Part shown: positions 11,057-13,282 of the stretch, one piece after another | Layout: each line of letters begins with the position of its first letter | Numbering within the stretch: the stretch's first letter is position 1 | NCBI GenBank assembly: GCA_029266735.1 | Contig: JAQSWG010000010.1 | Coordinates: 1-64,000, forward strand | Length of the DNA stretch: 64,000 nucleotides | Origin: Ornithinibacter sp. | GTDB taxonomy: Bacteria > Actinomycetota > Actinomycetes > Actinomycetales > Dermatophilaceae | Reading direction: 5' to 3' | Made by a program: the position numbers and the translations under genes | The notes under the pieces: model-generated | Told to the model about the DNA's origin: nothing | Databases searched by the model: none | What the model saw: the letters and a program-made list of their open reading frames with translations, nothing else

Positions 11057-11150
11057 CCTCTGCGCCATCGAGGTGGTGACGCAGAAGACGGGTCAGGACG
11101 CAGAAGCTTCTGCGTCACCGCCCGACTTCTGCGCCATCAGTGGTGACGCG
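11057..11150. repeat. Intergenic palindromic repeat cluster built on CTTCTGCG
   Basis: Perfect 20-bp palindrome gacgcagaagcttctgcgtc (11097-11116), flanked by cctctgcgccatcgaggtggtgacgcagaag and cttctgcgccatcagtggtgacgcg. Confidence 0.75.
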
Positions 11151-11176: not shown

Positions 11177-11367
11177 TCACCAGCCGCGCCGGCGCCACTC
11201 GTCGAGGTGTGGACGCTCGGCTCCGATCGTCGAGTCGTCGCCGTGACCGGGGTAGAACCAGGTGTCGTCGTCGTGGGTCGCGAAGACGCGCTCGACGACG
11301 TCCCGGTAGAGGGAGTCGAAGCTCTGGCCGGGGTTCTTCGTGTTGCCCACGCACCGGGGAAGAGCGA
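11177..11367 (-). pseudogene. Displaced C-terminal fragment of the MBL-fold hydrolase gene
   Basis: Minus strand reads ..SLFPG / VGNTKNPGQSFDSLYRDVVERVFATHDDDTWFYPGHGDDSTIGAERPHLDEWRRRGW*, paralogous to the C-terminus of the gene at 11923-12582; one-base frame break just after SLFPG. Confidence 0.85.
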
Positions 11368-12111
11368 GGGATCGTTCTTGAGCGTGGTCGTTAAAACGTG
11401 TGGAAGGCTCGTCTCGTGTCGGCTACCGCGCAAGTTCTAGGTCTGCTGGGTGTCGTGCTTGGGGCGGCGTTGTCCTGGGGAGCGGGTGCGCTGAACGAAC
11501 GGGCTCGGTTCCGGCGTGAGCAGATCACGCGTGCCCAGGACCGACGGCTCGATGCCTACGCTGAGTTCTCCTCCTCGACGAAGCGGACGATGTCCGTCCT
11601 ATTTCGAGCGGCGGCTGCTCGAGGCGTTGACCAACAGACCGAGCCCTTGTCGCTCGACGACGCGAAACCTTTGCTCGCAGCCGCGTATCACGACCGGGAA
11701 GTCGCGTTCGAAAAGGTTCGGCTGGTGGGCAGGGAGGAAGTGGCCGAAGCTGCACGCTTGTGGGTGCGGGCGATCTACAAAATGCGTGAAGCAGTGACGG
11801 AGGAGATTTTGACAGAGGAACGATGGAGCGACCTAGTAAGTACGGCCAATGCACATCGAGCGGCGTTCCATGAAGCGGCACGCGGCGATCTTGGACTTTC
11901 TTGAACAACAGGGACTTCCGAATCACCAGCCGCGTGCGCGCCATTCTGCCAGGCTCGGGCGCTCCACCCCCAGGGTCGAGTCGTCGCCGTGTCCCGGGTA
12001 GAACCAGGTGTCATCTTCGTGCTTGGCGAACACTCGCTCTTCTAGGTCGCCCATGAGGGAGTGATGGTCCTCTGGAGTTGTTGTCCGGCCATGACCCCCG
12101 GGGAAGAGCGA
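11354..12111. mobile_element. Putative small integrase-less insert with att-like 14-bp direct repeats at its borders
   Basis: ccggggaagagcga at 11354-11367 and again at 12098-12111; enclosed ~744 bp looks less GC-rich, carries one ORF and a replacement 3' end of the MBL gene. Confidence 0.55.
11398..11904 (+). CDS. Hypothetical protein with N-terminal transmembrane segment and charged coil (cargo of insert)
   Basis: GTG start; VSATAQVLGLLGVVLGAALSWGAGALNERARFRREQITRAQDRRLDAYAEF; ORF fills the insert. Confidence 0.65.
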   Translation: MWKARLVSATAQVLGLLGVVLGAALSWGAGALNERARFRREQITRAQDRRLDAYAEFSSSTKRTMSVLFRAAAARGVDQQTEPLSLDDAKPLLAAAYHDREVAFEKVRLVGREEVAEAARLWVRAIYKMREAVTEEILTEERWSDLVSTANAHRAAFHEAARGDLGLS

Positions 12112-12582
12112 GTCGCCGGTGAACAGGTGCGTCCCGTCGTCCGGGTCCGCCCACGAGAGGGCAACCGACCCGGGCGTGTGCCCGCGGAGGTGGATGACAT
12201 CGAGCTCGAGGACGCCCACGGTGACCACGTCGCCGTGTCGCAGCCGGACGTCCGGCGCCACCGGAAGGGCGTCGGCGTCCTCCGCTCCGGCGTACGTCGT
12301 GGCGCCCGTCGCCCGGGCGACGTCCTCCAGCGCCCGCACGTGGTCTGAGTGCCGGTGGGTCGTCACGAGGTGGTCGAGCCGCCCCGTGCCCTCCTGCACG
12401 AGCGCCAGGCACCTCGGGGCGTCGTCGGCGGCGTCGATGAGCAGCTGCTCGCCGGTCTCCGTGCACGTCACCAGGTAGACGTTGTTGTTCATCGCCGACA
12501 CGGCCATCTTGCGGATGGTCGCCCGACGCAGCGTCCGGACGTCCGCGGGGCCGCCCGGGACGACGTGGCCGGTGTACGTCAC
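11923..12582 (-). CDS. MBL-fold metallo-hydrolase (C-terminus probably replaced by the insert)
   Basis: HLVTTHRHSDHVRALEDV (HxHxDH-type motif), HLRGHTPGSVALSW, FTGDSLFPGGHG, YPGHGDDS. Confidence 0.9.
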   Translation of the reverse strand: MTYTGHVVPGGPADVRTLRRATIRKMAVSAMNNNVYLVTCTETGEQLLIDAADDAPRCLALVQEGTGRLDHLVTTHRHSDHVRALEDVARATGATTYAGAEDADALPVAPDVRLRHGDVVTVGVLELDVIHLRGHTPGSVALSWADPDDGTHLFTGDSLFPGGHGRTTTPEDHHSLMGDLEERVFAKHEDDTWFYPGHGDDSTLGVERPSLAEWRARGW

Positions 12583-12586
12583 GGCG

Positions 12587-13282
12587 TCATCTCCCCGGCG
12601 GTAGCAGGGGGAGCGGGTCACCCGACACCCCGTCGTGAAGTCCGCGCGCCAGCCAGCCGAGCAGGGACGCCCGGGTCCCCGTGACGGATGCCGTCCCGAC
12701 GCCGACCGTCCACTCCCCGCCGTCGGTCGCCCGGAGCGTGAGGTCGGGCACCACCTCGGAGGACCGCAGCCGTCGCACCTCCTCGTCGAGGAACCGGCCC
12801 TGGAGCTCGGGCTCGATGTCGTCGAAGGTGAACGCCGCGTCGAGGTCGACGTGGTGGTAGGCCACCTCCCGCAGCCTCACGAACGGAATCCGACCGGCCC
12901 TGACGAGGAAGACCCCTGGCGTTCGCTCGAGGCGCAGCTCGGCGTGGTCCGGGCGGAGACGTGGAAGGTGCTCGGCCAGCACGGCCGCGCTCTGGTCGAC
13001 GTCCTCGACAAGCTCCGCGGAGGACCGGCCGGCCCCGGCCTCGATGTCGGCGTCGCGCGCCTCCTCACTCGCGTACATCGTCTCGCCGGTCCCCTCGACC
13101 GCGGAGCGGATGAGGGCGGCGAGGCCGTCGGCGTTGCGGGCGACGTGGGTGAGGACGTGGCCCCGAGTCCACCCTTCACACAGTGAGGGCGAGCGGGGGT
13201 CGTCGAGGCCGCGCGCCGTGTGGAGCAGCAGCCGCGTGTGGCGGTCGACGGCCTTCAGGACGTCTGGCGAGGTCGGGTCCAT
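12587..13282 (-). CDS. Maleylpyruvate isomerase family mycothiol-dependent enzyme
   Basis: SLCEGWTRGHVLTHVARNADGLAALIRSAVEG; DinB/MDMPI-type. Confidence 0.88.
   Translation of the reverse strand: MDPTSPDVLKAVDRHTRLLLHTARGLDDPRSPSLCEGWTRGHVLTHVARNADGLAALIRSAVEGTGETMYASEEARDADIEAGAGRSSAELVEDVDQSAAVLAEHLPRLRPDHAELRLERTPGVFLVRAGRIPFVRLREVAYHHVDLDAAFTFDDIEPELQGRFLDEEVRRLRSSEVVPDLTLRATDGGEWTVGVGTASVTGTRASLLGWLARGLHDGVSGDPLPLLPPGR

Follow-up and report, generated by a model that had tools for sequence, protein, structure and literature searches.

SCC and SCCmec elements use serine recombinases to insert near the 3' end of a gene, form composite arrays and include recombinase-less members (ccr-less remnants). 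A perfect repeat of 15 bp combined with restoration of a gene end is typical of tyrosine integrases. Among the ICEs and IMEs of streptococci, cis-mobilizable elements (CIMEs) and accretion arrays have been described (PMC7563491). Diverged large serine recombinases that share one conserved coding site are also known (PMC10083194), and the serine integrases of Mycobacterium prophages and PICIs act in protein genes of actinobacterial hosts (PMC8092301, PMC10654092). The locus considered here lies in a 64,000-nucleotide stretch of an Ornithinibacter sp. contig (JAQSWG010000010.1; hereafter the window), where an insert has replaced the 3' end of a gene for an MBL-fold hydrolase. The insert is very probably an integrase-less, CIME-like member of a family of actinobacterial elements that use a serine integrase at the SLFPG codons of this gene and replace its tail. 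Across actinobacteria, an attB in the MBL gene appears to serve phages, satellites and inserts without an integrase alike, and it is apparently undescribed: a search of openly readable main texts found no paper that names the MBL gene as an integration site.

The interrupted MBL gene and its empty counterpart

The MBL gene lies on the minus strand. Its native 5' part (12113..12621) aligns with the genes of two genomes from the same genus, G001 and G003, and starts at a GTG at either 12619-12621 or 12580-12582, the reading frame being extendable to 12621 beyond the start (12580-12582) chosen in an earlier note on this DNA. The whole protein matches Lactamase_B (PF00753, E 4e-16). Its C-terminal tail (GHGRTTTPED...RARGW; 11923..12097, minus strand, stop codon 11923-11925) is unlike the genus-native GGVGNTKNPGQ tail, and third-position GC falls from 0.95 in the head of the gene to 0.73 in this tail and 0.64 in the cargo ORF of the insert. 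A second, orphaned tail (11177..11353, minus strand, stop codon 11177-11179) is 95-98% identical to the tails of uninterrupted genes in the genus and shares ~62% protein identity with the intact tail. The orphan lacks one base directly after the core, reading CCCCGGT-GCGTGGGC where G001 has CCCCGGTGGGGTGGGC; because this deletion shifts the frame, the orphan is a dead fragment.

The 14-mer ccggggaagagcga occurs at 11354-11367 and 12098-12111, and no third copy is found in the window even with one mismatch allowed (chance expectation at that setting, 0.06). Identity between the two cores extends to 15 bp, ccggggaagagcgag, forming a direct repeat on the minus strand with one copy on the orphan side (11354..11368) and the other in the SLFPG codons of the intact gene (12098..12112), 744 bp apart. 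The junction at the latter has the position seen in all occupied sites, which would place the crossover inside the TT of the F codon or adjoining it.

G001 and G003 each contain a single uninterrupted MBL gene, with a tail reading GGVGNTKNPGQSF.SLYRDVVERVF that is the orphan tail of the window (98% and 95% identical to the query, respectively). When the head of the window gene is joined in script to the orphan tail, the product aligns throughout with both genes, the one-base deletion excepted, and the sequence past the MBL stop codon is still similar to that of G001. The window and G001/G003 are a true pair of occupied and empty sites. In the intergenic DNA beside the orphan tail (11060-11150), a CGCAGAAG/CTTCTGCG motif is repeated, with some copies inverted, and G001 has a comparable stretch.

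The insert proper (11369..12097, no strand assigned; the 744-bp core-to-core unit) is missing from G001 and G003. It has a GC content of 61.6%, compared with 71.1% for the window, and is single-copy in the draft genome apart from one 29-bp match. Its sole ORF encodes 168 aa (11398..11904, plus strand) with a hydrophobic N-terminal stretch and a helical bundle; a model predicted from the single sequence is all-helical (pLDDT 89), and fold searches with it returned generic helical bundles only, none with E < 0.001. No match was found in Pfam, PHROG or NCBIfam, and the insert contains no recombination or transfer genes. The ORF starts 30 bp from the core, the place occupied by the integrase start in autonomous elements. 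It is present in 4 of 188 family genomes and in 22 of 395 class genomes, the 21 others belonging mostly to one genus, and has no relatives in the viral contigs searched. Among plasmids and phages, only distant homologues were found, on four Streptomyces plasmids and, weakly, as gp33 of Gordonia phage Malibo, which sits in a region with annotated tyrosine integrases. No relative combining the same ORF with an integrase, and so linking the insert to an ICE or IME, was found in the 188 family and 395 class genomes. A search of the insert for an integrase vestige gave nothing (best E above 3), nor was an integrase of the clade described below found in the draft genome of the window (~94% complete).

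The earlier note, made from the letters of the window, had thus described the locus accurately. Its 14-mer stands exactly at both edges of an insert of about 744 bp, now with one more base of identity; the intact tail and the orphan C-terminus read as it claimed, the latter with a frameshift in addition; and the insert carries one small ORF and neither a recombinase nor a remnant of one. The comparison of GC and codon usage with the flanks that it proposed gives lower values in the insert, at third codon positions as well as overall. It had also suggested looking in relatives for an uninterrupted gene with the GGVGNTKNPGQ tail, holding that relatives with both tails, or a failure to find any occupied/empty pair, would speak against integration; G001 and G003 have the uninterrupted gene and provide the empty site.

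Serine-integrase elements and their arm motifs

Across the 188 family genomes the MBL tail is single in nearly all, and besides the window a second tail lies close by only in G065 and G143. The G143 insert is 8.9 kb long (L048 1931-10758) and encodes a 489-aa serine integrase with Resolvase and Recombinase domains (phrog_95), the start of which adjoins the orphan tail. Further genes, for primase-like and WhiB-like proteins and a terminase small subunit (TerS), give it the appearance of a phage satellite, and it has no obvious genes for a capsid or tail. The integrase, replication and packaging-related genes that characterize PICI-like satellites are all lacking in the window insert. G065 (L040 3345-4151) has a 621-bp tandem tail duplication with near-identical tails, 25 bp of identity at the junction and no element-type motif. 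It was considered as a second passive member of the family and set aside, as the tail it carries is motif-less and its two tails are near-identical; the duplication probably arose by a different mechanism.

Queries of IMG/VR with the G143 integrase and MBL tails identified contigs (10.8, 59.6 and 115 kb) on which an integrase of the same type adjoins an MBL tail. When 85,462 species genomes were scanned with an alignment of four such integrases, 17 loci emerged. An orphan MBL C-terminus lies beside the integrase start in Lentzea, Solihabitans, Frankia, Kineosporia, Arthrobacter sp. Br18 and a Nocardiaceae MAG; in one Lentzea it is within a few kb of the integrase rather than directly adjoining its start. 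These serine-integrase elements break the MBL gene at the same F codon (TTC) of SLFPG as in the window. However, the G143 element and the others share only ~6 bp at the core, compared with 15 bp in the window. For this reason the 15-bp repeat was dropped as the functional core, and the 14-15 bp of identity in the window is partly fortuitous.

The tails brought by the elements start with TTYCCNGGNGGYCNYGGNMGGACAACA or something near it, coding for FPGGPGRTT. This stretch uses codons that are rare in GC-rich genes (CCT, ACA), so the DNA of the element tail itself seems constrained, which points to an att-site constraint inside the coding sequence of the host enzyme. The conserved start of the tail is a likely right arm of attP, and in the window the corresponding motif, TTCCCCGGGGGTCATGGCCGGACAACA (12079..12105, minus strand), overlaps the codons for FPGGHGRTT. 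With leave-one-out matrices, it scores 31.7 bits as a putative right arm; the integrase-bearing elements themselves score 23.9-41.2 bits, and 28 unoccupied genes of relatives have a mean of 2.95 and a maximum of 13.5 bits. On the opposite side, ~25 bp away from the core, a looser left-arm motif of the TRTTCACC type is common to the integrase-bearing elements. The window has a weak left arm: at -1.7 bits, it is in the top 1% of 94 background sites and below most integrase-bearing elements.

As a search pattern, the right arm has 8 matches in 8 of the 395 class genomes, all in the MBL gene, the window being an exact match; the reversed pattern has none in the 395 genomes. A second tail stands in tandem in five of the carriers (G000, G421, G491, G514, G238), lies on a different contig in G462 and is decayed in G455. 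In G538, no second tail is seen within 5.2 kb downstream. An element-type motif in a tail, with no second tail on the stretch read, occurs both in G538 (L111 5213-5395) and in G051 (L091 7392-7571), where either a larger element may extend further or a past insertion may have left a scar.

Integrase-less inserts and the origin of the window insert

At the MBL site, inserts of 0.6-4.4 kb without an integrase are found repeatedly in unrelated genomes, some of them as tandem arrays. Besides the window, two tails stand in tandem in 7 of 395 class genomes, a count that leaves out second tails at contig edges in G228 and G558. The tails are separated by 30 kb in G421 and by 10.9 kb, with an integrase of the clade, in G428. 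The spacing is much shorter in G491 (0.70 kb) and in G512 and G514, where the 0.64 and 0.59 kb between the tails contain a 140-aa ORF and an ACT-domain ORF, respectively; in G481, the orphan of which is shortened, it is about 0.72-0.79 kb. The seventh, G238 (L085 2498-6735), has an integrase-less insert of ~4.2-4.4 kb. Judging by the translations, its ORFs encode an MFS transporter and proteins resembling an FAD oxidoreductase and TetR; this cargo is a resistance-like set.

Two inserts stand in a row in Dactylosporangium fulvum, one of 0.89 kb (VapB antitoxin) and one of 1.68 kb (DUF4143 ATPase), and no integrase is present at this MBL-site array. In Lentzea californiensis, a 27-kb integrase element is followed by a 0.97-kb piece with genes for a Phd-family antitoxin and a PIN-type toxin, and a piece of 2.5 kb in L. 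waywayandensis contains an ATPase ORF. The pieces with the Phd antitoxin and PIN toxin are near-identical in L. californiensis (L080 5715-6870) and L. waywayandensis (L066 6518-7193); both lie between or beside displaced MBL tails, and their flanks are direct repeats of left arm plus tail. The inner members of the Lentzea and Dactylosporangium arrays have native-type tails in which the motif is absent. Beyond the tail, the inserts have little in common and their cargo is unrelated. In the small ones the cargo is apparently intact, and the ends fall precisely on the core on the orphan side. G455 has a motif-bearing MBL tail and a broken orphan tail adjoined by only ~60 residues of an integrase N-terminus; loss of the integrase by deletion therefore does occur at the MBL site.

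According to the mechanism we propose, the family comprises integrative elements of actinobacteria that may be phage-sized, satellite-like or reduced to a small cargo. A large serine integrase would recombine attP with an attB in the SLFPG codons of the conserved MBL-hydrolase gene, cutting the gene ~60 codons short of its end. The element would supply a new tail, the first codons of which (FPGG.GRTT) would double as the right arm of attP. Because the element brings this substitute tail, the enzyme would stay complete, while the native tail, now a dead orphan, would end up beyond the far side of the element. Going by the codon and motif that the window has in common with the integrase-bearing elements, an integrase of their clade probably made the insertion, and the window copy most likely then lost its recombinase by deletion, becoming a CIME-like relic; a passive cassette acted on in trans would be the second option.

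That second option invokes the same site and recombinase and differs solely in how the integrase went missing. Passive cassettes, each made of a cargo gene, a substitute tail and att, would be excised and integrated in trans by serine integrases that phages or satellites in the same cell provide, and could stack in arrays. Such a history would suit the many independent small inserts with different cargo (VapB, a Phd-PIN pair, a DUF4143 ATPase, an ACT-domain protein, an MFS transporter with TetR), the unrelatedness of this cargo from insert to insert, the arrays of Lentzea, which stand in tandem beside integrase elements, and the two consecutive inserts of D. fulvum. Their precise core ends on the orphan side fit as well: random deletion would not leave small inserts with intact cargo ending on the core. 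However, a deletion made by the recombinase itself, between the orphan-side att and a pseudo-site, would give core-precise ends just as a passive circle inserted in trans would. G455, moreover, demonstrates that deletion can remove the integrase, several small inserts including that of the window have a weak or unrecognised left arm and so may not be substrates, and the inner array members of Lentzea and Dactylosporangium carry motif-less tails of native type. Mobilization of the window insert in trans is thus possible, though we consider it doubtful. We give the same low credence to the wider idea that phage-type serine integrases operate a gene-cassette system, in which one gene or toxin-antitoxin pair travels with a substitute tail and an attP arm inside the MBL coding sequence, leaving the host with its enzyme.

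Two further explanations would dispense with this integrase clade altogether. The 15 bp common to both junctions and to the gene itself could have served as SLFPG microhomology in a partial duplication of the MBL gene, or in the homologous import of the end of a foreign gene together with its neighbour, with no site-specific recombinase involved, and G065, with near-identical motif-less tails 621 bp apart, demonstrates that tail duplication exists. In the window, however, the intact tail is no copy of the orphan (~62% protein identity) and bears a motif otherwise confined to occupied or formerly occupied sites, and integrase elements use the same codon, which makes this origin improbable. Still harder to credit is insertion by a tyrosine integrase with a 15-bp core, independent of the serine-integrase clade. 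The perfect 15-bp repeat and the restored gene end do fit the habit of such enzymes, but every MBL-site insert with an identified recombinase has a serine integrase, and the window has the right-arm motif of the serine-integrase elements.

Descent from an integrase-bearing element of the serine clade is thus the reading we prefer, and it retains most of what the earlier note inferred. Site-specific integration that restores the MBL gene and displaces its old tail is supported by the empty-site relatives, the serine-integrase elements and the tail motif. The recombinase-bearing elements that the note suggested looking for at the SLFPG core of MBL genes exist, and their enzyme is a large serine integrase. 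Its class of CIME, satellite or deletion remnant was well chosen, given the satellite-like element of G143 and the integrase-stub remnant of G455 at the same site. The note had regarded an MBL codon block acting as attB for a minimal passive element as unusual; the integrase elements found there agree with the proposed attB, but passive inserts are recurrent rather than unique.

As to wider use, the element-type motif offers a one-line DNA signature for spotting occupied sites that lack an integrase, and serine integrases with a predicted attB and attP could serve genome engineering. The series from integrase-bearing element through integrase stub to integrase-less insert makes the choice between decay and cassettes mobilized in trans directly testable.

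Comparison with known systems

The MBL site resembles the streptococcal CIMEs (PMC7563491) in having integrase-less inserts between att-like sites that either stand by themselves or form a tandem with an integrase-bearing element. The differences are that the partners at the MBL site look phage- or satellite-like rather than conjugative, that the integrase is a serine integrase, that the target is the MBL gene and that inserts can be shorter than 1 kb. On the basis of its sequence, the window insert is most likely CIME-like, a description by which we do not claim full membership of the CIMEs. In Dehalococcoides, the ssrA islands have CcrB-like serine recombinases and are similar in using one conserved gene end, in forming tandem islands and in including several islands that lack an integration module; however, their target is a tmRNA with a 20-bp repeat, whereas the MBL target is a protein gene that gains a tail of ~60 codons (PMC3146451).

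The large serine recombinases that share one coding site differ in disrupting their targets (Mg chelatase/protease, prolyl isomerase), and the main text on them mentions no MBL gene (PMC10083194). The Mycobacterium prophages and PICIs likewise use other targets, with neither an MBL nor a uvrA-linked site mentioned in the main texts (PMC8092301, PMC10654092). The MBL-linked integrases match phrog_95 and target the MBL gene, whereas an SCC element is defined by rlmH and Ccr recombinases. The two systems thus differ in target gene, recombinase clade and hosts, and the tail replaced at the MBL site is far longer than in SCC.
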